NCBI GenBank assembly: GCA_026985515.1
Contig: JALSQH010000100.1
Span: 1 to 14,103 of the forward strand
DNA: 14,103 nt
From: a bacterium
Lineage (GTDB): Bacteria; JALSQH01
Direction of reading: 5' to 3'
Below are positions 1,587-14,103 of this stretch, piece after piece; position 1 is the first letter of the stretch, and each line of letters begins with the position of its first letter. The translations under genes and the position numbers were made by a program. Below the pieces are notes generated by a model. It saw only the letters and a program-made list of their open reading frames with translations, was not told the origin of the DNA and searched no databases.

Positions 1587-2738
1587 TTACTCCAGGCGTC
1601 CCCTTTTCAGCATCTCCTTGAGAATGATAATTCTCTGAATTTCACTTGTTCCTGCACCAATTTCCATCAGTTTTGCATCTCTTGCCAGTCTCTCCACCGG
1701 AAAGTCCCTGGTGTATCCATAGCCCCCAAGAATCTGGACAGCGGAAAGGGCAGCTTTTGTTGCCGCTTCCGAGGAAAAGACCTTTGCCATGGCTGCATCC
1801 ATGTTTGCCTTCTCCCCTCTCTTTGCCTTTTCGAGAGCGGCATAGATCAGATACCTTGACGCATGGTAAAGGGTAACCATATCTGCTATTTTTTCCTGTA
1901 CCATCTGAAAATCAATAATTGGGCGGCCAAATTGTTTCCTCTCCTGTGCATACTGGAGGCTTATGTTTATTGATTCCTTTATTATTCCAAGGGCAATTCC
2001 AGCAAGGGTTGCTCTCTCAATATCAAGATTCCTCAGCATCATGTAAACGCCGTTATTTTCATCCCCCATCAAGTTTTCTTCAGGAACCTCGCAATCCTCA
2101 AAATATATTTCAGATGTGGGGGAGGACCTCATTCCCATTTTTTTAAACTTCTTTCCCACCTTCAGACCTTTGAATTCTTTTTCAACTATGAAGATACTTA
2201 TTCCATGCTTCCCCTTCTCGGGAGATGTTTTTGCATACACAACAAATATGTCTGCCACCGGTCCATTGGTTATGAATGTCTTTGTGCCATTTAAAATATA
2301 TCTGTCCCCCTTCTTTACTGCAGTGGTTCTTATACTGGTTGCGTCAGAGCCTGCCTCCGGCTCTGTCAGTGCCATGGCTCCAATTTTCTTCCCGCTGGCA
2401 AGATCAGGGAGGTATTTTTTCTTCTGATCCTCACTGGCATGCAAGAGAATGTTATTTGTGCAGAGGATTGTGTGATCACCGTATGAAAGGGCAAGGGCTG
2501 GATCAACGGTTGCTATCTCTTCCATCACAATGGTTGCACCAACAATATCTCCACCTGCGCCTCCATATTCCTCCGGAACAGTTATTCCCAGAAGTCCCAT
2601 CTCAGCAAGGTAATTGAATCCTTCTCTGTTGAATTCCTCCTTTTCATCGTAGAGTGGAGCAAGGGGTTTCAACTTCTCCCTTGCCAGCTTTGAAACTTCC
2701 TCTTTCAGCAGACGGTACTCTTCATTCAGTTCAAACAT
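1587..2738 (-). CDS. Acyl-CoA dehydrogenase, isovaleryl-CoA dehydrogenase-like
   Basis: A 383-aa FAD flavoenzyme of the usual family length, oxidising an acyl-CoA to the 2,3-enoyl-CoA with electrons passing to ETF. Visible motifs are [10 protein letters not shown] at 123-132 (flavin/substrate loop), R-K-Q-F-G-R-P at 267-273 and the C-terminal G-G-Y-G-Y at 338-342. The usual catalytic Glu of medium/short-chain enzymes (in I-Y-E-G-T) is replaced by Ala362 (G-A-G-T-S-E). A Glu stands at 241 in L-D-I-E-R, the helix position used as catalytic base in isovaleryl-CoA dehydrogenase. A branched short acyl-CoA substrate, e.g. from leucine, is therefore the best guess. The start is supported by GGGAGG a few bases upstream of ATG. 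It is last in the long minus-strand operon, 31 bp after the histidine kinase, and metabolically unrelated to its neighbours. Confidence 0.9.
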
Positions 2739-2769
2739 TTTAACCTCCCTGGTTAAACTTTTTAAAATA

Positions 2770-4278
2770 TTAGCACATCTCTTTTCCCTCTGGCAATTTT
2801 ATTTGAAACCTGGTTCCAATTTCTGGAGAGGATTCAACCTCTATTTTCCCTCCCATCTGTTCAATTATCATTGATGATACATAGAGGCCAAGACCCGTTC
2901 CCTTCCCTGGCTCTTTGGTGGTGAAGAAAGGGAGGAATATTTTTTTAAGGTTCTTCTCCTCTATGCCGATTCCGTTGTCCTCAATCTGCACCGTGATGAT
3001 TTCTTCACTTTTTTTAAGTTCAACCCTGATGTATCCTCCCTCATTCTTCCCGAATTTTTCCCTTATGGCATCGGAGGCATTTACCAGAAGATTAAGGATT
3101 ACCTGAAGAAGTTTTTCCTCCTCTGCGCAGATTTCATAATCCTCTCCCCTCACCTCCACACTGATTCTTTTGAGTTTTCCCTGAATATTCAGCAGATCCA
3201 GAGCCCTGTTTATCAGATTTTTCAATCTAACCTTTCTGTATTCTTCCCGTCTGGGTCTTGAGAAGTCAAGGAGTGTTCTTATCAGATTGTCAATTCTCTT
3301 TCCTTCACTGAGTATTCTCCTGAGTATATCCTTTTCCTCATCTGAAATGTCTGGTGACTGAAGAAGTATCTGTGTCAGCCCGATTATTGAGGTTATTGGA
3401 TTGCCAATTTCATGGGCAAGACCGGAGGTCATCTGCCCGATGAGGGCGAGTTTCTCATTTTTTATTATTTCCTCCTGCATCTCCTTTAATTTCCTGTAGG
3501 CTTCGTTCAGTTCCCTCACCTGGTTGATTATGGTATTTCTGTCTTCTTCAATTTTTTTTGACATGGAAAACATGGACTCTGCCAGAAAACCCAGTTCATC
3601 GCTGGAGTGAAAGGGTTTTTTCTTCAGAAAGTCCCCTCTGGCAATCTTTTCAGATGACTCAATTAATTTTCCAATTGGTGAAATAACCTTCCTCTCCGTG
3701 ATCCAGAGGAGAACCACAATTATAACAATTGAGGTGGCGAAGATGTATAGAAAGAGCAACCTGAAGATTCTCTTTGCGACCCCATTGAACCAGGAGAGAT
3801 CAAACCTCATTATGATCTGTATATTTCTCCTGCTTCGCATAAATATGTCGACCCAGTGATACTCTGAAACGGTGAGAATTCGTTTTTTCAGGTTTAGAAA
3901 AACTTTTTTTTCCTTTTTTGAGGAGAGAAAGGCTGCAATTTCATCTCCGGTACCTGAAATATTTCCCGTTTTTACGACGGGCTCCCAGCTGTAGAGAATT
4001 TCCATTCCCAGGAGAATCCCCTTTTTCCTCAGGGGATCAGAGAGCCATCTGGTGAGGGTTTCTATATCAGGGGTTTTTCTGGAGGAGATGATTGTTTTTT
4101 CTGCATAGCTTTTTGTTATTTCTGAGAATAGTTCAAAATTTTTAATCTGTTCTTTGAGAACTTCAGTTTCAACTATCTTTACAACACTCCAGCTGAGAAG
4201 GAAGACCAGAGTGAGAAAGAGGAAGAGATACCAGATAATAAGACTGAGAGAAAGGGAGTGAACCCATCTAAGTTTCAT
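2770..4278 (-). CDS. Membrane sensor histidine kinase (HAMP-HisKA-HATPase)
   Basis: 502 aa. TM1 is at about 11-33, an unrecognised extracytoplasmic domain at 34-170 and TM2 at about 171-193. HAMP follows at 194-246, a short coiled coil at 247-278, and HisKA with phospho-acceptor His289 (G-L-A-H-E-I-G-N-P). The ATPase domain shows the N box (Asn400), the G1 box D-N-G-I-G-I at 434-439, the F box F-L-P-F-F-T-T-K at 448-455 and the G2 box G-K-G-T-G-L-G-L at 458-465. All catalytic elements look intact. The subgroup resembles NtrB/AtoS-type kinases that usually pair with sigma-54 activators. No response regulator is in the window. It starts 6 bp after the prepilin peptidase stop without a clear Shine-Dalgarno, suggesting coupling. 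A PilS-like role for the sigma-54-type pilin promoter is possible, but PilS normally has about six N-terminal membrane segments, so this is only inference. Confidence 0.92.
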
Positions 4279-4284
4279 ACAATA

Positions 4285-5103
4285 TTAGAATAGCAACAAA
4301 TGGACCAGTTTGTCCACACCAATCAGATATGTGAGAAACGCCCCCCCGGCAATGAAGGGACCAAAGGGGATATATCTGACCTCCTGAAGCTCCTCCTCTT
4401 CCACCCTTTTCCCTGTTTTTATGGTCAGTGGATATCCTATAACGATCCCCAGAAATGAACCAATTATCAGTGTGAAGAGGATGCCATACAGGCCAAGGAA
4501 AACCCCGGTGGCGGTGAGTATTTTTATGTCTCCACCTCCCAGTGCGGGGTAATCGATTTTTTTTACTTTTTCATATACAAAGGAGATAAGCAGAGGAATT
4601 CCTCCTCCGATCAGTGCCCCGGCGATACCCTGTATGGGGGAGGTTTTTAAGAGATGGAGAAAGAGGAGGATCAGACCCACACCAAGAAGAGGAAGTGATA
4701 GTTCATCTGGTATGGTGTAGGTATCCCAGTCAATTGCAGATATGACGAGGAGACAGCCGAAAAAGAAAAAGTATATAAAAAACTCAGGAACAGTTTCTGA
4801 TTTGAGAGCGATTAGTATGGAGATAATTCCTGTCACGAATTCCACAATCGGGTATCTCATGGATATCTTTGCACCACAGTATCTGCATTTGCCTTTGAGG
4901 AGAATATAGCTCACCAGAGGGATATTGTCGTACCATTTCAGTCTGTGCCCGCAGACGGGACAGTGGCTTGGAGGGTAAATAATAGATTCTTTTCGTGGAA
5001 TTCGGTATATGCATACATTGAAGAAACTTCCCCACACAAGGCCCCAGATAAATGCAGAGAGAAGTATGAACCACTCTGGAATATGAAGGATAAGTTCTTT
5101 CAT
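4285..5103 (-). CDS. pilD: Prepilin peptidase / N-methyltransferase (type IV leader peptidase)
   Basis: 272-aa polytopic inner-membrane aspartic protease (A24A). It cleaves the short leader of type IV prepilins and N-methylates the new N-terminal Phe. The cytoplasmic N-terminal domain has the S-F-F-N-V-x-I-Y-R-I-P signature at 26-36 and the four-Cys zinc motif C48-x2-C51 and C73-x2-C76, which marks the bifunctional form. The catalytic aspartates are Asp125 (A-I-D-W-D-T) and Asp192 in G-G-G-D-I-K. Several membrane segments fill 85-270. Its ATG overlaps the stop of the preceding 58-aa gene (ATGA). The pilin at 13155-13535, processed at Gly7/Phe8, is an obvious substrate, together with the second pilin if it is intact elsewhere. 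Identification is secure. Confidence 0.95.
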   Translation of the reverse strand: MKELILHIPEWFILLSAFIWGLVWGSFFNVCIYRIPRKESIIYPPSHCPVCGHRLKWYDNIPLVSYILLKGKCRYCGAKISMRYPIVEFVTGIISILIALKSETVPEFFIYFFFFGCLLVISAIDWDTYTIPDELSLPLLGVGLILLFLHLLKTSPIQGIAGALIGGGIPLLISFVYEKVKKIDYPALGGGDIKILTATGVFLGLYGILFTLIIGSFLGIVIGYPLTIKTGKRVEEEELQEVRYIPFGPFIAGGAFLTYLIGVDKLVHLLLF

Positions 5104-5276
5104 CGCAACATTCTTATTATCAGAAAGGAGATTACTGCAAAAATAAGTCCACTGATTCCTATTATGAGCCCGGTAATCCTCTGATATTTGGGTTTCACAT
5201 AGAAAAATACGAAAAAACCCAGCAGAGAGGAAAACAAACCGAGAATTATGTAAAAGTAGTAAAGTGATAAATTCAT
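5100..5276 (-). CDS. Small two-TM membrane protein (58 aa), unknown function
   Basis: A 58-aa reading frame between the GT2 glycosyltransferase and prepilin peptidase genes. Its ATG overlaps the glycosyltransferase stop as ATGA (5273-5276) and its own TGA overlaps the prepilin peptidase ATG (5100-5103). It therefore exactly bridges the two genes, which is the strongest evidence that it is real. It has two hydrophobic helices, about residues 5-27 and 36-54, joined by a short basic loop (K-P-K-Y-Q-R), and ends R-M-L-R. No family recognised. The double overlap suggests translation is coupled, giving amounts similar to its neighbours. It may be a subunit or stabiliser of the transferase, ABC permease or peptidase. 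Confidence 0.75.
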   Translation of the reverse strand: MNLSLYYFYIILGLFSSLLGFFVFFYVKPKYQRITGLIIGISGLIFAVISFLIIRMLR

Positions 5277-6232
5277 TTTGGTTTCAGATCCCTGTTATAT
5301 TCCATGTCAAACCACATTGCAAAGAGGAGAAACTGGATGCCGGAGATCGTTAGGAACATGGCAAACAGTGCACTTGTTGGTGCCACACCATGACCCATCA
5401 ATCGTATGATGAAGAGGTAAAGTCCAAAAATCAGGCCCGGAATGGTCAGAACTACACCTGCAGTGTAAAAGAATACGAGAGGATGAAAGTCCCTGATTAC
5501 ATACTTTTCCCACATTCTCCTGAAAAAACCTCTGAGAAGAAGCATGGAGATGGGGAGAATCACTTTAGGAATCTTCATCTTGGATTTCTCCCCCACATTG
5601 TAAAGGGGATTGACTGGCACATCCATAACCCTCATGTTGACAATGTTCAGTTTTATGAGAATGTCGTTGGGTACTCCATACCTTTTGTAAATCGTGTCCC
5701 AGTCAATTGCAAGGAGGGCCCTTCTGTTAATGACGGTGTAACCTGTCTGGGAATCTGCAATGTGCCAGTATCCTGATGCGATTTTGGTAAGAAGTGAGAG
5801 GAAGGCGTTTCCAAGGTACCTTACCTTTGGAATTTTCTTCCATGCCTCACCGGTGAAAAGTCTGTTGCCTTTGACATAGTCAGCCCTGTCTTCAACAATG
5901 GGGTCAAGAAGTGAGGGAAGGTCAGCCGGGTCCATCTGTCCATCCCCAGCCATTACAGCCACAGCATCAAGTTCAAGTTCAATGGCTTTTTTGTATCCTG
6001 TTGCTATTGCTCCTCCAACCCCCTGATTTTTATCATGTCTTATGAGTATCACCCTTTCATCTCTGTGATCGGAAATATATTTTTTAACCACTTCAGCCGT
6101 ACCGTCGCTGCTCGCATCATCAACGACGATGATGGTATCAACAAAATCGGGTATCCCTTCAAGCACCCTGTATATCTGCTTTTCCTCATTATAGGCGGGA
6201 ACGACCACTCCCGTTCTTTTTCCCCTGTACAT
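5273..6232 (-). CDS. GT2 family glycosyltransferase, polyprenyl-phosphate sugar synthase type
   Basis: 319 aa. The N-terminal GT-A fold has V-P-A-Y-N-E-E at 11-17, V-V-D-D-A-S-S-D-G-T at 36-45 for nucleotide-sugar binding, D-G-Q-M-D-P at 97-102 (DxD-like metal site) and D-S-Q-T-G-Y at 160-165. Two C-terminal membrane segments lie at about 252-277 and 286-307. This is the Dpm1/GtrB-like layout, in which a sugar is moved from a nucleotide donor to a polyprenyl phosphate on the cytoplasmic face. The sugar cannot be read from sequence. It starts 2 bp after the ABC permease stop, with AAGGAG inside that gene. Because two GT-C proteins in the same operon belong to families that use polyprenyl-phosphate sugars, it is the likely donor synthase for them. 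Confidence 0.9.
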   Translation of the reverse strand: MYRGKRTGVVVPAYNEEKQIYRVLEGIPDFVDTIIVVDDASSDGTAEVVKKYISDHRDERVILIRHDKNQGVGGAIATGYKKAIELELDAVAVMAGDGQMDPADLPSLLDPIVEDRADYVKGNRLFTGEAWKKIPKVRYLGNAFLSLLTKIASGYWHIADSQTGYTVINRRALLAIDWDTIYKRYGVPNDILIKLNIVNMRVMDVPVNPLYNVGEKSKMKIPKVILPISMLLLRGFFRRMWEKYVIRDFHPLVFFYTAGVVLTIPGLIFGLYLFIIRLMGHGVAPTSALFAMFLTISGIQFLLFAMWFDMEYNRDLKPK

Positions 6233-6234
6233 TT

Positions 6235-7008
6235 TCAGTAAAACTCCTTCTTTTCAAAGATCAGAGTTGAGATGGTGAGGAGAAAAAGAATATATGCCAC
6301 TGCGTAGAAAATAGAATTGATAACATAACCCTCTGGTAAGGTAAGATTGTGTACCACTTCGTTTTTTATATTCAGATTGTGGAAGTTGGGGAGAATATTG
6401 TAGAAAAAGAGGATTGTAAACTTTAAAACAGGCGAACTGGCCATTTTCATTGTGAGAAGAGATTTTAATTCCTCCAGTGAATTGCCAATCAAATAAAGTG
6501 TGGTTGTGAAGAGTCCGCTTAAAATGGGAGAAGAAAAAGTGGAGAAGAAGATGGAGATTGCTATGGTCAGGGAAATTTCCATAAAGATGAAAAAGGCTCC
6601 CACAAAGAGGAGAGAAGTTATTTTCCCCTTAACAATTACTATGAAGATAACCACGAAAACAAGCATTAAAACTTCCTGAACAAAGAGTGTGAGAGAAAGT
6701 CCAAGAAATTTCCCGAGGATAAACTGCCACCTTTTAACAGGTTTTGGTATGACTGTGAATATGGTTTTTCTCTGAATTTCGTTGTAGATCATCCCTGTTC
6801 CTATGATAATTGCCATTGCCACGCCGAGCAACTCTATTCCACTGAATCCAAAATCAATGACAAATCTCCTGGTTTCCCCCATAGTAAAACTTCCCAGAAT
6901 TGTGGAAATACCGAGCAGGATCAGAAGGAAAAATAGGACGGTGTAGAGAATCCTGTTTCTTATGGCTTCTCTGTAGGTGTTAACTGCCACCACGTATATC
7001 TTTTTCAT
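6235..7008 (-). CDS. ABC-2 type transporter permease (PilI-like position)
   Basis: 257 aa from ATG 7008. The frame stays open further upstream to an ATG at 7086, but 7008 is preferred: [15 protein letters not shown] is a typical ABC-2 permease start and GGAGGAG lies about 10 bases before it. About six membrane segments can be drawn, at roughly 19-40, 57-76, 95-125, 128-160, 165-185 and 225-248. The family-typical cytoplasmic loop ([10 protein letters not shown] followed by [13 protein letters not shown]) lies between the second and third. It overlaps the ATPase gene by 29 bp, so the two form one transporter. In Myxococcus xanthus an ABC ATPase and permease (PilH, PilI) sit between pilA and pilD and are needed for pili; the arrangement here matches. 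The substrate is unknown. Confidence 0.88.
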
Positions 7009-7921
7009 ACTTTCTGTACTCCTCCATGAATAGATCCTCCAGCATGACTCTTCTTGGTATAAAAGAGAGGATTTCCAGTTGTTCATTAACAGCTTCTTTC
7101 AGAAGCTTCTGGGCTTCTCCGAAGTCCTTCAGGGTAACTATGATTGAACTCCCCGAAGGTGAATATTCAAGCCCCTTGTTTTTCACCCACTCCTTTGCAT
7201 TTGCCGTCAGTTCAATTTCATATCCTGTGGATCTTTTAACCAGCAGTTCCTCGATGCTGCCTGTTTCCACTATCCTGCCCCGAATCAGAATTGCCACCCT
7301 GTCGCAGATCATCTCCACATCTGAAAGGATATGTGAGGAAAAAATTATTGTCTTACCCTTTTCCTTCAGGGAGAGAATTATGTTTTTAAGTTCCTTCCTC
7401 CCCACGGGATCAAGGCCTGTCATTGGTTCGTCAAGTATCAGAATTTCCGGGTCATTTATCAGAGCCTGAGCCATTCCAACTCTCTGCAACATACCCTTTG
7501 AAAATTTCCCTATCCTCGTATCCTTCCATTTAGTCAGAGAAAGAAGATCAAGTAGATATTCGATTCTATCATGAAGTTTTTTTCTCTCTATGTTGAAAAG
7601 CCCCCCGTAGAATTGAAGAAGCTCAACAGGTGTGAGGTATGTATAAAAGTAGGGATTTTCAGGGAGAAATCCAATGGAGTTTTTTGCCTCCAGGTCATCG
7701 GGACTTTTATCTAAAATTTTCACCTCTCCCCCGCCAGGAAAGATGAGACCGGTAAGTATCTTAAAGGTTGTTGTTTTCCCCGCTCCATTGTGGCCAAGCA
7801 GACCAAATGTTTCACCCTTCTTCACAGAAAATGAAATACCCCTCAGGGCAGTTATCCTTTTCCTGATAATGTGGCCCGTGGGATAAGATTTTCTCAAATC
7901 TTTTATTTCAATGGCATTCAT
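6980..7921 (-). CDS. ABC transporter ATP-binding protein (PilH-like position)
   Basis: 313 aa. Walker A G-H-N-G-A-G-K-T is at 43-50, a Q-loop substitute E-N-P around 88-90 (F-L-P-E-N-P, common in ABC-2 exporters), the signature F-S-K-G-M-L-Q-R at 140-147, Walker B I-L-I-L-D-E-P at 160-166 with Glu165, and the switch His197. Residues from about 230 on form the extra C-terminal domain common in ATPases paired with ABC-2 permeases (CcmA/NatA type). It energises the permease encoded by the next gene, which overlaps it by 29 bp. It starts in an ATGA overlap with the TPR gene. Context (pilin, prepilin peptidase, glycosyltransferases) suggests export or assembly related to pili or their glycan. Confidence 0.93.
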
Positions 7922-8769
7922 CTTTTCAGGTATATTTTGATCCTTTTGTTATACACAGTGCTTCTGACCTCACCATCTTGTGTGAGATAGTATTTGCCTC
8001 CGAAAGGTTCCGGAGGTATCTCTCTCAGGTACCCCTTTTGCACAAGTTCATTCAGTGATTCTGGTAATCTCCCCTCCCTTTTCCTGAATCTACTGACGGC
8101 ATCCTCAAGGATTCTGAAATTTCTTTCAGCAATTATCATTTTGATTCTTCTGAGGATTTTCCTCTTTGTTTCTTCATTTCTCGTGTTTTTATAGACCTCC
8201 CAGAGAATTTTAAGGGCTGTATCTGCATCATTTTCCTTTGCCAGCAGTTTGCCTGCAAGACTCACGACAAAGAGTGGTCTTCCCGGTTTTGTGGCTGCTT
8301 CTTTGAAGTAAAAGGCGGCCTTTCTGTAATTTTCTTTGAAGTAGAGATAGATAAAACCTGTTATGAACCAGAGATACCAGTTATCAGGAAGGTATCTCAA
8401 CCCCTTCTGGAGAATTTTTATTGCGCTGTCAGTATCGTGTGCCTCCCAGGGAAGTATTGTCCCCGCAAAGCGGTAGGGATAGAAAAATCTGGGATCAAGG
8501 GATGTGACTGCGTTGAGTAGAGAGACAAGATATTTGAAATTTCTATCACTTTTCAGATGCTCTCCGGTGTAAACGAGGGTCTTCATCCAGATAATATCAG
8601 CAAGAACATTGTTGTAACCAAATGATATCAGCTGGGCATATTTATCAATGGGGAGGTAGAAGAAATCCTCAACTTCTCTTCTTTCCATTCTGTGAATCCT
8701 GCCATTCAGGTAACAAGCTGCTCCAAGCAGCAGGATAGCTATTGAAGTGACAATCCACCTTCTCTTCAT
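7918..8769 (-). CDS. Membrane-anchored TPR protein with GspG-like C-terminus
   Basis: 283 aa. One N-terminal membrane helix (about 5-22) is followed by a helical region with TPR-like pairs at about 77-200 (S-L-D-P-R-F-F-Y-P-Y, A-I-K-I-L-Q-K-G-L, A-A-F-Y-F-K-E-A). The tail at about 218-272 reads as a helix, then a pattern like the C-terminus of the type II secretion major pseudopilin GspG: Y/F-R-K-R-E-G-R-L-P-x-S-L-N-E-L-V, K-G-Y-L, I-P-P-E-P-F-G-G-K-Y. The protein itself has no prepilin leader. Both ends overlap neighbours by ATGA. It takes the place, before the ABC pair, that the accessory gene pilG holds in M. xanthus, but I cannot assert homology. A periplasmic scaffold linking the transporter to pilins is inference. 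Confidence 0.75.
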   Translation of the reverse strand: MKRRWIVTSIAILLLGAACYLNGRIHRMERREVEDFFYLPIDKYAQLISFGYNNVLADIIWMKTLVYTGEHLKSDRNFKYLVSLLNAVTSLDPRFFYPYRFAGTILPWEAHDTDSAIKILQKGLRYLPDNWYLWFITGFIYLYFKENYRKAAFYFKEAATKPGRPLFVVSLAGKLLAKENDADTALKILWEVYKNTRNEETKRKILRRIKMIIAERNFRILEDAVSRFRKREGRLPESLNELVQKGYLREIPPEPFGGKYYLTQDGEVRSTVYNKRIKIYLKR

Positions 8770-10319
8770 CTGATCTTTACAACCTCTACCACTTCATCAT
8801 TGTATAATATAGTTGCTTTTGATGCAAAGAGGTTTTTAAAGGATTCCACATCCTTCCTGGTGAAGTTTATTGATATAAAGCGTGACAGGAGAGTTTTGTT
8901 GATGGCGAGGCAATCAACTCCAAATTTTTTAAATGGATAAAATGAGTTTTCCCTCACTGCTGTGAGCAACCAGTTACCCTCAATATTTGTGGAAGGCTCA
9001 AACATGAAGGGTCTGTTAATGTAGTAACCTCTTCTACCTGTAAAGTAGAGGAAAATTTTTTTACATGGTGACCTGTTAATAAAATCATACATGTTTTTAT
9101 ATGGAAGATGCCTCCTCTTCCACTTTTCTTCTGACATTCTGCCAGTTAAAAAGGGTAAAATTTCAACACTTGAAGTGTGGGAGATAAAGTAGTTTGCTGG
9201 TTGAATAAGCGTGACTAAGAGAAGAATGGATGCAATTAACCTGTTTCTTTCTGAGAGCTTGCTGAGACCTTCCACTGTCAGTATGAGAAGAAAAGGTACG
9301 GCAGGCAGAAAATATCTTGCACGAAGTGGTTGAGTAAAAAATACGGTCAGGATGAAGAGAATTGCAATGGCAATGAAACCCCTGTTCCACTTATCTCTGT
9401 AGCTGGCGAAAATGGGGAAAATGATCAGATAGGGGGCAAGGGATCCGTCAAAGAGGGCGGGAACTCCATCCTTTCCATAGAAGAACACCCTTACCGGTGC
9501 AAGAAGTATCTGAAGGGTGGATTCGTGATAGACAAGTTTTCTAAGGGTGAGAGGATCGATGTAGGTTGTGAATTTAACAGGTGTGGGATTGAAGTGGTGT
9601 ACCTCCCTTATCTTTAAAAGGCCCGGTAAAAGGGGAAAGAGTGGATTTCCAGTATCCACATAATTCCACCAAAGCCAGAATCCATTCAGGAGAATAAGAA
9701 AAGAGATCGTTATTGAGGTAAAAATAATTCTGCTCCTGGCATCGGGGAGGAAGAGAAGAAGGATAAGAAACGAAAAGAGGAGAAGGGGAATGGCAGTATA
9801 CTTCGTTCCAAATGCAAGGGAGAAGAACAGGGAGGCAGTTATCAGATGGAAAATCTTTTCAGAAATAAGATATTTTCTTGTGTGAAATACTCCTGCTGCT
9901 ACAAAGGCGGAGACCCATATATCCACATAGGAAGAGGAGATTATCTGACCCACCACAGGTATAAAAAGAAAGAGGAAAATAAGCATGTACCGATCCTGTC
10001 GTCTGTTAAGAAAGGTGAAAATTTTCAGATACGCAGAGAGATAGAAGAGAAGGAGAGTTGAAGCAATTATACCAGAGAAATGTGCCAGAACGAAGTTGTG
10101 AGGACCGATGAGATAGTAGAGAATGAAAAAGATGGGTGGAAAGTGGGATGGGGTGAACCAGTAAAAAGGTGTGATTTTACCCGTTAACTTCCACAGGTGC
10201 GGAAGACTAAGAGTGTAGAAGAGCTCATCTTTTAAATAGGGTGGGAGAAAGGCCATGGAAATATATGTTATGGCAAGAATAATTATGACGAAGAGCAAGA
10301 GAAATCTGAGAGTCTTCAT
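8766..10319 (-). CDS. GT-C glycosyltransferase, PMT/ArnT-like (GT39/GT83 type)
   Basis: 517 aa with about ten or more membrane helices up to residue 380, then a soluble C-terminal domain of about 130 residues. After TM1 the first periplasmic loop has the acidic pair Asp31-Glu32 (L-K-D-E-L), the hallmark catalytic position of GT-C enzymes. Y-V-D-I-W at 131-135 and the W-x-x-W-N-Y-V-D-T-G-N-P-L-F-P stretch at 215-229 are typical of undecaprenyl-phosphate-sugar transferases. The acceptor could be protein, lipid A or a glycan and cannot be told from sequence. Overlaps of 4 bp at both ends embed it in the pilus operon, which makes pilin or another envelope protein an attractive acceptor. Confidence 0.82.
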   Translation of the reverse strand: MKTLRFLLLFVIIILAITYISMAFLPPYLKDELFYTLSLPHLWKLTGKITPFYWFTPSHFPPIFFILYYLIGPHNFVLAHFSGIIASTLLLFYLSAYLKIFTFLNRRQDRYMLIFLFLFIPVVGQIISSSYVDIWVSAFVAAGVFHTRKYLISEKIFHLITASLFFSLAFGTKYTAIPLLLFSFLILLLFLPDARSRIIFTSITISFLILLNGFWLWWNYVDTGNPLFPLLPGLLKIREVHHFNPTPVKFTTYIDPLTLRKLVYHESTLQILLAPVRVFFYGKDGVPALFDGSLAPYLIIFPIFASYRDKWNRGFIAIAILFILTVFFTQPLRARYFLPAVPFLLILTVEGLSKLSERNRLIASILLLVTLIQPANYFISHTSSVEILPFLTGRMSEEKWKRRHLPYKNMYDFINRSPCKKIFLYFTGRRGYYINRPFMFEPSTNIEGNWLLTAVRENSFYPFKKFGVDCLAINKTLLSRFISINFTRKDVESFKNLFASKATILYNDEVVEVVKIR

Positions 10320-10501
10320 TTTTTCCAGAAGTCGGGAACGGTGAGGAGAATTGTATTGAAGATCAGAACGATGACAAAGAGCAGTAATTCAAGGCCCCCG
10401 AAAATAATATCTTTCTCCTCTCTGATTTTCATAAATCCTATGTATCCGGCCCAGATAGCCAGAATCAGATCTATCACAGCTTCAATATGGATATGATCCA
10501 T
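10316..10501 (-). CDS. Small two-TM membrane protein (61 aa), unknown function
   Basis: 61 aa with two hydrophobic helices, about 8-24 and 34-53, joined by a charged loop (K-I-R-E-E-K-D). The N-terminus carries D-H-I-H-I-E and the C-terminus ends P-D-F-W-K-K. No family recognised. It overlaps the upstream 198-aa gene by 28 bp and the downstream GT-C gene by ATGA, and the frame fills the gap between them exactly. It is therefore probably real and translated by coupling. It is similar in size and topology to the 58-aa protein at 5100-5276, but the sequences do not look alike. Confidence 0.7.
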   Translation of the reverse strand: MDHIHIEAVIDLILAIWAGYIGFMKIREEKDIIFGGLELLLFVIVLIFNTILLTVPDFWKK

Positions 10502-11070
10502 ATCATGTACCCCAGAACGAAGGTTACAAAACTTATTTTTGCTTTAACTTTGTCTTTTGTAAGAATCATGAAAATAACACTTCCAGTCCATGTGAATAAT
10601 CCAATCAGCAGGAAAATTGATGCTACCAGATCGGGATCTTTAATATTGTCTCTCTCAAGTGCACGAGGATCATCGTAGAGTTTTGCTATGTGTTTATTTA
10701 TGGTTTTAAGTTCACCTTTAAAAGGTATGTAGAAGGATCTGTTTACCATGATACAACCCTTTGCAGCTAACCAGGCGTATTTTGCAAGCTTTGTTTTACC
10801 CTTATTTTCGTACAGATTTCCCAGAAATTCAAGTTTCTTCAAGCTCTTTTTGTAGTATGGGGAAAGTGGAAAGTACAGGTGGCAGGCCTTCTCATATGTC
10901 ATGATGAGTTTGTAGTTATCCCAGAAGTAGAGTTTCTTTAAAGAAGCTTCCTCAAGTTGAAGGGCATTGTGGTAAAGAGTTGCTGACTGCAGGTACAACC
11001 TCCCCACCAGAATAATGGTTGCAATTGCCACCGTCAGAACAATTTTCTGTGCTATTTTTCCTCCTGACAT
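10474..11070 (-). CDS. 198-aa membrane protein, unknown function
   Basis: One N-terminal membrane helix (about 9-24) precedes a soluble helical middle part (30-145). This part contains a TPR-like stretch: Y-E-K-A-C-H-L-Y-F-P-L-S-P-Y-Y at 59-73, then G-N-L-Y-E-N-K-G-K-T-K-L-A at 84-96. Two C-terminal membrane helices follow at about 149-170 and 178-196. The middle part most likely faces the periplasm. No named family recognised. AAGGA stands about 9 bases before the ATG, which lies 19 bp inside the end of the DUF2723 gene. The mix of a small helical-repeat domain with terminal membrane helices suggests an assembly or scaffold partner of the neighbouring GT-C proteins. Confidence 0.75.
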   Translation of the reverse strand: MSGGKIAQKIVLTVAIATIILVGRLYLQSATLYHNALQLEEASLKKLYFWDNYKLIMTYEKACHLYFPLSPYYKKSLKKLEFLGNLYENKGKTKLAKYAWLAAKGCIMVNRSFYIPFKGELKTINKHIAKLYDDPRALERDNIKDPDLVASIFLLIGLFTWTGSVIFMILTKDKVKAKISFVTFVLGYMIWIISILKL

Positions 11071-13109
11071 TTGCTATCCTTTTTCTCAACACATTTAAGA
11101 AAACGGTTTGAATCTATTATCACATCCTGAGAAACTGCCTTTTCTCTTGCCAGCAGAAGGTATTTTTTTGCCTCTTCAAATTTTCCAAGTTTTGTCAGGG
11201 TCTTACCCATAAAAAGGAGATAGTAGGAATCAGATGCATCCATACCGGACACTATGGTAATTCTGTTAAAGTAACGATACGCTTCGGTGTATTTGCCTTC
11301 TTTGTATTTGAGAAGCCCAAGATTGAGGAATGCATTTGGATCCGGAAGGGCCTTTTTCATATACTCTTCGCCTTTTTTATATTCACCGGCAATGAAGTAG
11401 GCAATTCCAAGGTTTATGTTAAAGGTTTTTTCCGGGAAATCCTGAGGATACCATTTCTTCAAAATTTTTAAAATTTCAATCATCAGATGGGGTCTCCCAT
11501 TCTTTGCCAGAAAAACTCCTATTCCATCAAGTGTTGAGCCAATGAAGGGACTCTCATCTGGATAGAGAGAGAGGCCATTTGATGCATCTATCTCCATGTA
11601 GTTTATTACCCTCTTTGTGTATTCAGTAAATTCAGTTACCACAGTGGCAAAGTTTATATTTTTTGCATATCTCTGAAAGCATTTCTCACCCGGTAACAGC
11701 GGGCAGCAGGACAGCAGAACAGGATGCACTGCGTCTGATATTTCAATATATACAGGGAGTCTCCCACTGTATTTTTTTACAAATTCCGTCATGGTTCTGT
11801 AGTCGTCAATGTACACAGAATAGTCAGCTATTTCAGGAAATCTCTTTTTATCAATGGGAGAAAAGAAATCCCTCATAAAAATCATTCCGGGTGAAAATAT
11901 TTCAAGATCATCTCGTGTTCTTTCAATATCCTGAAGATCCCTCATAACGAACCATGATGCATCGCTTATCATGACAGAATTTTTTGGTGTGTAGATGAAG
12001 TCCGGCAGGTAAAAGCTTCTTGCTACCCAGTAGTTGTACTTGTTTGTTCTGGGAAATGAGAGGAGTGCCTCTGTAAATAGACCCAGAACTATAGCAATTG
12101 CCACGATTCTTTTACCATGTTCTTCGAAAGTTTCAATGATCCTCTTACTGCCATATCCTGCAGCGATAACAAAAATTGCGTGTGAAGGGAGAAGGGGGGT
12201 ACCGATTTTCCAGGAAATAAAAAAGAGTATGTTAAAAATTGCGAGAAGAATAAAAAAGGAAAAAAGAGGTAAATTTTCCACAGCCAGAAAATAGAATCCT
12301 GCCAGAGAGAGAAGAGGAACAACCGGAGAAAAATCAATGTTGATATTTTTGATGAAAATTTTAATGTACTTAATCAGCTCAGCCGTGGATGCTGAGAGGA
12401 TCCCCACTCTGTCTCCCTTATCTTTTGCATCTGTGAGCTGATAGATCATTCCGGTCAGTGTCTGGGGATTACCCCAGTTAAACTGTGGCCACTGGTGTGC
12501 TCTCAGTGGAAGAAAAACGTATGTCGAAAACCCGAGAAAAAATAGAGCTGTGACAGCAGGAATAAGTCTCCATCGAAGTTTTGCCGGAGTGTAGTAGAAA
12601 TATGCAAATGCGAGGGCGGGAAGGAAAAGAGCCACCGTCGCATGAACTCCACTGCTAAGTCCATATATGAAGCTCCCAAGCAGAATGTACTTCTTTTCCC
12701 GTGTTCTGGTGAAGCGGATAACGATGTAGAGCAGAAGCAGGAAGAAAAAAGAGTTCATTGTGTAAACTTCTGCTACTGTGGCGTTGTGCCAGAGGGGATA
12801 GGAGAAGGCAAAAAAGAGGGAGAGAAAAATCGAAAGAATTTTTCCTGTATCGAGTTCAAGGAGTATGCGATACAGCATGTAAGTGGCGAGAGATGCGAAA
12901 AATGCGGAGACTAAATTTCCCCTCAGGTAAAGGTTACCCAGGGGTAAAAGTGAAAACACTTTCCCGAGCTCAACATAGGTGGGCGAACCTGCCGGGTGGG
13001 AAATCCCCAGAGTTTGAATGAGATCCTGAAATTCTGGCGTATCTCGCCAGAAAATTGTGGGCGAAACAGTGAAAATATATACAAAAAAAGAGGCAAGAAA
13101 GACAACCAT
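11052..13109 (-). CDS. DUF2723 GT-C-like membrane protein with C-terminal TPRs
   Basis: 685 aa. The N-terminal half is a polytopic GT-C fold of the DUF2723 family. TM1 ends at a P-T-I-F-W-R-D-T-P-E-F-Q loop with Asp23 and Glu26, followed by the family signature T-L-G-I-S-H-P-A-G-S-P at 33-43 and the L-G-N-L-Y-L-R-G-N-L-V-S-A-F stretch at 57-70. Ten or so helices run to about 350. A soluble region follows from 360, and TPR units lie at about 563-660 (I-N-L-G-I-A-Y-F-I-A-G-E-Y-K-K-G-E-E-Y). DUF2723 proteins are related to protein O-mannosyltransferases. Prediction: transfer of a lipid-linked sugar to a periplasmic protein. ATG 13109 is the only usable start in this stretch, with no clear Shine-Dalgarno, and lies just 11 bases after the U-tract of the pilin terminator. 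It is first in the twelve-gene run. Confidence 0.85.
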   Translation of the reverse strand: MVVFLASFFVYIFTVSPTIFWRDTPEFQDLIQTLGISHPAGSPTYVELGKVFSLLPLGNLYLRGNLVSAFFASLATYMLYRILLELDTGKILSIFLSLFFAFSYPLWHNATVAEVYTMNSFFFLLLLYIVIRFTRTREKKYILLGSFIYGLSSGVHATVALFLPALAFAYFYYTPAKLRWRLIPAVTALFFLGFSTYVFLPLRAHQWPQFNWGNPQTLTGMIYQLTDAKDKGDRVGILSASTAELIKYIKIFIKNINIDFSPVVPLLSLAGFYFLAVENLPLFSFFILLAIFNILFFISWKIGTPLLPSHAIFVIAAGYGSKRIIETFEEHGKRIVAIAIVLGLFTEALLSFPRTNKYNYWVARSFYLPDFIYTPKNSVMISDASWFVMRDLQDIERTRDDLEIFSPGMIFMRDFFSPIDKKRFPEIADYSVYIDDYRTMTEFVKKYSGRLPVYIEISDAVHPVLLSCCPLLPGEKCFQRYAKNINFATVVTEFTEYTKRVINYMEIDASNGLSLYPDESPFIGSTLDGIGVFLAKNGRPHLMIEILKILKKWYPQDFPEKTFNINLGIAYFIAGEYKKGEEYMKKALPDPNAFLNLGLLKYKEGKYTEAYRYFNRITIVSGMDASDSYYLLFMGKTLTKLGKFEEAKKYLLLAREKAVSQDVIIDSNRFLKCVEKKDSKCQEEK

Positions 13110-13120
13110 CTCTGGATAGG

Positions 13121-13144
13121 AAAAAAGAGGGGGATCGCTCCCCC
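13121..13144 (-). terminator. Rho-independent terminator after the pilin gene
   Basis: On the minus strand GGGGGA, loop GCGA, TCCCCC, then CTC and six T. The six-base-pair, mostly G-C stem starts about 10 bases after the pilin stop. It is a well-formed intrinsic terminator. The T-run ends only 11 bases before the ATG of the DUF2723 gene, so any transcription entering the operon from the pilin must read through it. Confidence 0.85.
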
Positions 13145-13154
13145 ACTTTTCTCA

Positions 13155-13535
13155 TTACTTGACTGTGATCTTACCGGTTGAGGAATTGTAAACAAAGCTC
13201 TTAGTACCGAGCTTGTGATATGCAATTCCGGACCAGGTCTGTCCACCTGTATCAGCTGTTGCGTTGATGGTTACATTCTTTGAGCACTTGGCACCCAGGT
13301 CTGTTCTGTTTGGAGTTCCACCCAGTGTACAGGAGAAGTCAACATACACCTGGTTGTCTGCATAGTAGGCTTCCTCAGCACTTACCAGGTTCCTCAGGTC
13401 GCTCTTGGCTGTGGAGTCGTAGGCTTTCTTTCTGTAGGATGAGAACTGAGGGATGGCTATTGCTGCCAGAATACCAATGATTGCAACAACCACGAGTAAC
13501 TCAACCAGCGTGAAACCTTTTGCACCCTTCTTCAT
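13155..13535 (-). CDS. pilA: Type IVa major-pilin-like protein
   Basis: 126 aa. Class III leader M-K-K-G-A-K-G is cut after Gly7 before Phe8. The mature protein (119 aa) has Glu5 and the canonical hydrophobic F-T-L-V-E-L-L-V helix. In mature numbering aromatics fall at F1, F24, Y27, Y32, Y50, Y51 and Y57. All but Y50 coincide with the aromatic positions of Geobacter sulfurreducens PilA (F1, F24, Y27, Y32, F51, Y57). Unlike that 61-residue pilin, this one carries a C-terminal globular part with one probable disulfide (precursor C69-C84) and Trp101. The shape, with a Cys pair and short beta region, fits a small type IVa pilin. AAGGAGGTGA just upstream of ATG is a near-perfect ribosome binding site, implying high expression. 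A sigma-54-like promoter lies upstream and a terminator follows directly. Confidence 0.93.
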   Translation of the reverse strand: MKKGAKGFTLVELLVVVAIIGILAAIAIPQFSSYRKKAYDSTAKSDLRNLVSAEEAYYADNQVYVDFSCTLGGTPNRTDLGAKCSKNVTINATADTGGQTWSGIAYHKLGTKSFVYNSSTGKITVK

Positions 13536-13572: not shown

Positions 13573-13589
13573 ATGCACATCCTGTACCA
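13573..13589 (-). promoter_or_regulatory. Sigma-54 (-24/-12) promoter candidate for the pilin gene
   Basis: TGGTACAGGATGTGCAT on the minus strand matches TGGCAC-N5-TTGCA at all but two positions, keeping the invariant GG and GC at correct spacing. Transcription would begin near 13562, leaving a leader of roughly 27 bases that contains the ribosome binding site. Sigma-54 control of pilA is known in Pseudomonas, Myxococcus and Geobacter. A competing GGCAC box about 60 bp further upstream lacks the GC element at the right distance. Confidence 0.65.
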
Positions 13590-13665: not shown

Positions 13666-13980
13666 TTTCTCCCTTATTCTGCCTACTGTTGAATCAAAAA
13701 TATATGTTGTGTTTCCCCTCAGGTGGTATGAACTTGCGCTCCAGGCATCTCCCGTGGTGTTTACTGAAGCCTGAATGGTAACCTGAGAGGAGCAGATGAA
13801 ACTCATATTTGTTCCCTGAGAAACATTTCCATCCTGACAGAAGTAGCTGTGGTAGGTCTGATATCCGGCGTAGTAAGCCTCTTCAACATTGACTAAATTT
13901 CTCAGGTTGTCAAGGGCAACAGAGTTGTAGGAATAGACCTTATACCTCTGGTAAGCAGGAATAACAATTGCTGATAAAAT
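13663..13980 (-). pseudogene. Second type IV pilin, N-terminus missing at a sharp junction
   Basis: An open frame of 105 codons ending in TGA, clearly pilin but without start or leader. From I-L-S-A-I-V-I-P it aligns without gaps to the intact pilin for 48 residues, up to and including the first Cys. Shared features are L-R-N-L-V, E-E-A-Y-Y-A, the second Cys, D-A-W-S and the S-x-Y-H-L region. Homology stops exactly at 13980; the next codon is not the expected Gly and an in-frame TAA follows four codons on. About 21 residues (leader, Phe1, Glu5, start of the helix) and the ribosome binding site are missing. The body has no stop or frameshift, so the break is recent or the piece is kept, for example as a silent cassette. 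Sequence divergence from the neighbour indicates an old duplication. Confidence 0.8.
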
Positions 13981-14103
13981 AGGTAGTGTAAACGTTTATT
14001 CGCAAAAAAGTTGAGGTAGGATTTTTTAATGAATAAAACTTGGTAGGACGATGAAGGGAGTTTTAAATCTCAGAGGGACTCAAATTAATAAAAATTGGAG
14101 GCC
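13981..14103. mobile_element. Possible end of an insertion element or rearrangement next to the pilin fragment
   Basis: A 123-base AT-rich stretch beginning at the exact point where pilin homology ends. It starts AGGTAGTGTAAACG and holds the palindrome TAAACGTTTA (13989-13998) and three GGTAG motifs (13982, 14015, 14042). An ATG at 14051 (+ strand, TAGGA just before it) opens a frame to the window end that could be a transposase start, but its 17 visible residues match nothing I know. The GTGTAAA near the edge is reminiscent of IS256-type ends, though that is weak. The other end and any target duplication are outside the window. Confidence 0.4.

Follow-up and report, generated by a model that had tools for sequence, protein, structure and literature searches.

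Contig C100 of genome G000 (2.36 Mb in 268 contigs) carries a type IV pilin gene followed on the same strand by genes for an ABC transporter, three glycosyltransferase-like proteins, a prepilin peptidase, and three small or unannotated membrane proteins. The contig was analyzed in its entirety (14,103 bp) and is called the window below. Judged from its genes, the window is a Myxococcus-type type IVa pilus (T4aP) locus encoding PilA, PilG, PilH, PilI, and PilD on one strand. We propose that it probably also holds a dedicated set of extracytoplasmic enzymes for O-glycosylation of the pilin, beside pilin handling that depends on PilG-PilH-PilI (PilGHI).

Twelve open reading frames (ORFs) lie downstream of the pilin gene (13155-13535, minus strand), all on the minus strand and extending to position 1587. 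Their successive junctions are -19, -28, -4, -4, -4, -29, +2, -4, -4, +6, and +31 bp, of which the -29 presupposes that the permease starts at ATG 7008. A first-pass annotation of this DNA had placed twelve genes on the pilin strand, as the ORF coordinates bear out, and with that permease start its eleven junction values match exactly. Its labels for the pilin, the DUF2723 protein, the ABC ATPase, the permease, the GT2 protein, and PilD were likewise upheld by hidden Markov model or solved-structure searches. Its claim that the pilin belongs to one overlapping chain is not supported: the junction between pilA and the next gene, absent from its list, is a gap of +45 bp in which a terminator splits pilA off.

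The Pilin Gene and Its Terminator

The pilA product is a major-type type IV pilin of 126 amino acids with a GFTLVE prepilin motif (PF07963, N_methyl, 2.6e-9), and its N-terminal 75 residues match the PilA_Myxo model NF041775 (2.4e-19). The 45-bp gap that follows holds GTGGGGGAGCGATCCCCCTCTTTTTT, which ranks first among the intrinsic terminators on the window's minus strand. Its hairpin, GGGGGAGCGATCCCCC-TCTTTTTT (13144-13129, minus strand), has a folding energy of -21.2 kcal/mol, compared with -8.8 +/- 2.6 in 1,000 shuffles. Given so strong a terminator after pilA, the gene stands outside the overlapping chain. A comparable hairpin with a T-run lies 3' of pilA at loci L030, L033, L043, L122, L155, and L160; none was seen at L029, L058, L092, or L110, and L109 has a weak one.

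About 40 bp upstream of pilA, a sigma-54-like promoter candidate, TGGTACAGGATGTGCA (13574-13589, minus strand), departs from TGGCAC-N5-TTGCA by two mismatches. Its placement near pilA and the presence of PilSR/NtrC-type regulators in the genome fit such a role. Because a scan of the window gave five matches of this quality where 2.9 were expected, which is not above chance, we keep the site as a candidate only. Between pilA and the contig end lies a second pilin-like sequence (13672-13986, minus strand), with 40% identity to PilA residues 20-124. It has no prepilin peptide and little of the N-terminal helix; from its sequence, it appears to be a silent cassette or the pseudogene of a truncated pilin.

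The PilG-PilH-PilI-PilD Core

The PilG-type protein (283 amino acids; 7918-8769, minus strand) was assigned by profile, model, and synteny. It consists of a transmembrane (TM) anchor, a TPR-like solenoid, and a GspG-like C-terminal segment. Against solved structures, its profile (A2) matches TPR proteins at 3e-19 and, at the C terminus, GspG/EpsG weakly at 0.01 to 0.07. The predicted structure (pLDDT 84) agrees: in it, the TPR solenoid leads into a long helix and then a small hairpin. Next come a PilH-type ABC ATPase (313 amino acids; 6980-7921, minus strand; PF00005, 9e-28), which is conserved beside PilG and PilI, and a PilI-type ABC-2 permease (6235-7008, minus strand; PF12679, 9e-12). PilD (272 amino acids; 4285-5103, minus strand) matches both prepilin peptidase domains (A24_N, PF06750, 5.6e-39; A24, PF01478, 8e-18) and is the single prepilin peptidase match found in G000. 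The same genome carries, on another contig (L154; G000:C174), a type II secretion operon with a GspC-J-like gene order, which must depend on the same PilD.

The first-pass annotation had likened this gene order to pilA-pilG-pilH-pilI-pilD of Myxococcus xanthus, and homologues in Citreicoccus inhibens (Myxococcaceae; L175/L033) give the parallel sequence support. There, homologues of the TPR protein, the ATPase, and the permease come after a pilin matching the PilA_Myxo model (1.8e-54), and the window's PilG-type protein corresponds in synteny to the PilG position. A contig scan with the myxobacterial PilG picked up two named loci, and one with the window's own PilG protein gave no matches. The remaining pilus genes of G000, namely, pilB, pilT, pilC, a pilS-like kinase gene, and pilR, all lie on contig C233, which stops inside pilR. 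In M. xanthus-type clusters, pilA comes after pilR; C233 may therefore precede C100, but the ends of C233 have no 12-mer in common with the window.

Glycosyltransferases within the Chain

Three genes of the chain encode glycosyltransferase-like proteins. The one directly behind the terminator, T260 (685 amino acids; 11052-13109, minus strand), specifies a TMEM260/DUF2723-like GT-C enzyme with C-terminal TPRs (PF11028, 4e-26; 92.3 bits against a cutoff of 24.2). Its N-terminal GT-C region aligns with the solved structure of TMEM260 (9rql) at 4e-18. In that alignment, the aspartate of the T260 motif WRDTPEF, in the first extracytoplasmic loop, stands opposite the aspartate of GGDSGEL in TMEM260, a position that we take to be that expected for the GT-C catalytic residue.

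GTC (517 amino acids; 8766-10319, minus strand) is a second, PMT-like GT-C protein recognized by NF047510 (1.5e-9), and its homologues at L144, L145, and L146 match PMT_2 (PF13231) and adjoin GT2, PilD, or pilin genes. GT2 (319 amino acids; 5273-6232, minus strand) resembles dolichol- or polyprenyl-phosphate-sugar synthases (PF00535, 2e-27), with further AglJ-like (2e-22) and PpgS-like (3e-16) matches, and has C-terminal TM segments.

Recurrence in Other Genomes

Among the genomes searched, one belongs to the same family as G000 (G001, ~80% complete), and the remainder share only the domain. The first-pass annotation had held that its reading would fail if such genes never accompanied pilin or PilD genes elsewhere. 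Several unrelated families do carry homologues of T260, GTC, P198 (a 198-amino-acid membrane protein encoded in the chain), and GT2 next to pilins, PilGHI, or PilD. In the 20 regions around the best T260 homologues, which contain 24 T260 genes, a pilin lies within 1 kb of 6 of the 24, compared with 0 of 242 genes in unrelated regions (Fisher P = 3e-7). The pilin-adjacent homologues are at L058, L109, L110, L112/L113, and L122; GT2 genes lie directly behind T260 at L110 and L122 and within the same cluster at L112/L113.

The distant genome G057 carries pilA-T260-GTC and T260 C terminus-GTC-GT2 on two short contigs, and a third contig reads TPR/PilG-PilH-PilI-x-PilD-histidine kinase, where x is an intervening gene. 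In G179, a single contig reads pilA-pilA-PilG-T260-PilH-PilI-P198-x-PilD-histidine kinase, and G034 has PilC-histidine kinase-response regulator-pilA-PilG-PilH-PilI-P198-PilD. Partial arrangements are also found: T260-P198-x-GT2 at L099, P198 after PilHI-type ABC pairs at L102 and L103, a GTC homologue adjoining PilD at L145, and another between GT2 and pilA at L146. The sister locus in G001 (L028) retains GTC-PilG-PilH-PilI-P58-PilD-histidine kinase-dehydrogenase, where P58 is a small membrane protein described below; neither T260 nor P198 turned up in this incomplete genome, whose contig ends in GTC.

Viewed from PilG, a pilin lies within 3 kb at 21 of 48 loci (P = 4e-8). An extracytoplasmic transferase occurs at 9 of the 48, corresponding to 9 of 118 large ORFs near PilG and 0 of 125 far from it (P = 0.001). 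Proteins of the Wzy_C O-antigen-ligase type lie between pilA and PilG at L030, L155, and L187 and beside PilG or PilI at L036, L178, L182, and L191. At L039 and L159, a polysaccharide pyruvyl transferase gene is situated between the PilG-type and PilH-type genes.

Comparison with Known Systems

The order pilA-pilG-pilH-pilI-pilD has been described for M. xanthus (Wu et al. 1998, as cited in PMC3724824; PMC6060248), and pilG, pilH, and pilI are reported to be necessary for pilin translocation and pilus formation in that species (PMC3724824). The window is alike in its single-strand order of PilA, TPR protein, ABC ATPase, ABC-2 permease, and PilD, and G000 has its pilB-T-C-S-R genes on a separate contig that ends where pilA would follow. 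The difference is that the window adds six genes, for two GT-C proteins, GT2, P198, P61 (a second small membrane protein), and P58.

In Pseudomonas aeruginosa and other species, a terminator follows the pilin gene in pilin/accessory cassettes and has been proposed to reduce accessory gene expression (PMC11841053). The pilin-adjacent glycosyltransferases TfpO and TfpW, the latter described as a GT-C arabinosyltransferase, were shown experimentally to act on the neighboring pilin (PMC11841053). The window likewise has a glycosyltransferase gene downstream of pilA and behind an intrinsic terminator; as those cassettes are described, its TMEM260/GT117-like GT-C enzyme and its linkage to PilGHI and PilD set it apart. 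Enzyme and substrate are also neighbors, again by experiment, in pglL-comP of Acinetobacter baylyi (PMC3643930). PglL-type O-oligosaccharyltransferases share with the window an extracytoplasmic transferase gene adjoining a pilin gene, but PglL is a Wzy_C ligase whereas the window has GT-C enzymes; the Wzy_C proteins at L030, L155, and L187 fill the same slot.

Human TMEM260, an O-mannosyltransferase (GT117; 9rql; PMC11292533), has the GT-C region and the GDSGE-motif aspartate in common with T260. Unlike it, T260 is bacterial, bears a TPR C terminus, and is pilin linked; the activity that marks TMEM260/GT117, mannosyl transfer from a lipid-phosphate donor to Ser/Thr, is putative in T260. Finally, three-component extracytoplasmic glycosylation systems consist of a GT2 enzyme, a flippase, and a GT-C enzyme using a lipid-linked donor (PMC11127046). 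The window shares the GT2 and GT-C components, whereas family library searches recognized no flippase of the GtrA or MATE type in the chain. P58, P61, or PilHI could be the missing flippase.

Proposed Function and Alternatives

Our proposal builds on observed features: the gene content and order, the terminator, the catalytic-type aspartate of T260, and the recurrence in other lineages. From these we infer the pilin as acceptor, the identity of the sugar, the flippase, the cargo of PilGHI, and the roles of the small proteins. In outline, pilA would be transcribed at a high level and mostly halted at the terminator, with read-through supplying a low level of the accessory enzymes. GT2 would load a sugar onto polyprenyl phosphate at the cytoplasmic face, and the donor would then be flipped outward. 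T260, GTC, or both may move the sugar to Ser/Thr residues of membrane-held pilin, and PilD would cleave and methylate the prepilin. Ahead of fiber assembly by PilB/PilC, the target of PilG-PilH-PilI would be the pilin or some accessory substrate, and P198, P61, and P58 might associate in the membrane with the transferases or with the transporter.

Several observations weigh against this proposal. The glycan on the window's pilin is a predicted one. The sister locus L028 does without GT2, which is therefore not obligatory, and GTC itself lacks a Pfam match. TMEM260-class GT-C proteins are common (145 of 386 genomes) and mostly not beside pilins, and T260 could thus modify another protein. The enrichment of glycosyltransferases near PilG is modest: when the loci used to build the models are excluded, it falls to 5 of 114 compared with 0 of 125 (P = 0.02), and in 20 unselected loci alone, P is 0.12.

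Other explanations were considered. PilGHI might serve glycosylation, flipping the lipid-linked sugar or loading pilin onto the transferases and forming a single functional unit with them. The lack of a recognized GtrA- or MATE-type flippase in the chain is in its favor, as are PilGHI-type trios beside glycan enzymes, some without a nearby pilin (Wzy_C at L036, L178, and L182; PMT_2 at L176; PS_pyruv_trans at L039 and L159). Because PilGHI adjoins transferases, sometimes with no pilin in the vicinity, we leave some room for this explanation. Yet PilGHI follows pilA without a nearby transferase in Citreicoccus and several other families, and M. xanthus pilGHI mutants are reported to have defects in pilin translocation and pili (PMC3724824), so we consider it unlikely. 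Its bolder form, in which PilG-PilH-PilI is the transport arm of glycosylation and not a pilin exporter, with P198, P61, and P58 as dedicated partners, strikes us as quite unlikely. If true, it would assign a function to the transporter and define a new pilus glycosylation machine across several bacterial lineages.

It is improbable, too, that membrane glycosyltransferases with no link to the pilin, working on a cell surface glycan or other glycoproteins, were inserted here by chance or drift. The absence of GT2 from its position in G001 would suit such an origin. Lateral insertion is also suggested by the identity of GT2 to its counterpart in G057, which adjoins the GTC gene there: it is 60%, compared with 26 to 41% for the other proteins shared with that distant genome. 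Against this explanation stands the independent recurrence, in at least six families, of T260, GTC, and GT2 next to pilins or PilD. The eleven same-strand junctions of -29 to +31 bp might be taken to mean that one transcript runs from pilA to the dehydrogenase and that the whole chain is a coregulated operon. Considering the strong intrinsic terminator right after pilA and the metabolic nature of the last gene, we regard this as very improbable. Extracytoplasmic glycosylation of the pilin, beside PilGHI-dependent handling, remains our preferred explanation.

The first-pass annotation called the locus an undescribed module. Both halves, PilGHI-PilD and pilin-adjacent glycosyltransferases, have been described individually, and the label is therefore not supported in its strong sense. 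What stands is the joint arrangement: within the literature searched, which leaves out most subscription journals, we found no report of a pilus locus joined with TMEM260-like enzymes and P198, nor any paper treating TMEM260 together with pilins. We know of no direct demonstration of the cargo of PilG-PilH-PilI, and its recurring link to extracytoplasmic glycosyltransferases makes its function concretely testable. The proximity of TMEM260-like enzymes to pilins also suggests that this family, known mainly from human work, has a protein substrate in bacteria.

Small Membrane Proteins and Neighboring Genes

In P198 (10474-11070, minus strand), an N-terminal TM helix leads into TPR-like helices and then a C-terminal TM hairpin. 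The AlphaFold2 model (pLDDT 89.6) confidently predicts this architecture, with a TPR-like bundle preceded by one TM helix and followed by the hairpin. No family was matched in Pfam, NCBIfam, or PHROGs, and comparison of its fold with the PDB returned nothing significant (best E value, 0.32). Relatives are present in 23 of 386 diverse genomes; the family is widespread, yet the libraries searched carry no annotation for it.

Short relatives of P198 (128 to 133 amino acids) are encoded at L098 (9824-10437), L100 (53-630), and L105 (9716-10306). Each has a two-TM protein of 61 to 77 amino acids immediately upstream and, by eye, a large RNase J-type-looking gene downstream, which at L098 and L100 is followed by UppP- and FtsK-like genes, also by eye. 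At L108 (14678-15034) and in G219 (C10:120633-120848), free-standing proteins of ~120 amino acids match only the GspG-like tail of PilG and lie a few kilobases from a free-standing P198-like C-terminal hairpin.

P61 (61 amino acids; 10316-10501, minus strand), an ORF with a -28 overlap, and P58 (58 amino acids; 5100-5276, minus strand), which is conserved at L028 in the sister genome, each have two TM segments, and neither has a match in PHROGs. P61 weakly resembles the small proteins beside the short P198 genes at L098, L100, and L105. Placing P61 and P58 in one family with those neighbors was rejected, as the E values ranged from 7e-4 to 3.5 in small searches. An assignment of P58 to the rhomboid family (PF01694) was rejected as well, at 20.2 bits against a cutoff of 22.6.

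Downstream of PilD, a histidine kinase gene (502 amino acids; 2770-4278, minus strand) has HAMP, HisKA, and HATPase domain matches, and a kinase follows PilD at L028 and L092 too. An acyl-CoA dehydrogenase gene (1587-2738, minus strand) lies 31 bp behind it, an order conserved at L028; the gene has a metabolic role and is probably a bystander. Convergent with the dehydrogenase gene, a large membrane protein is encoded on the plus strand (3-1586) and is open at the contig edge; it has a glycine-rich tail ending in VGGW and, by eye only, looks like a DUF2207-type protein.

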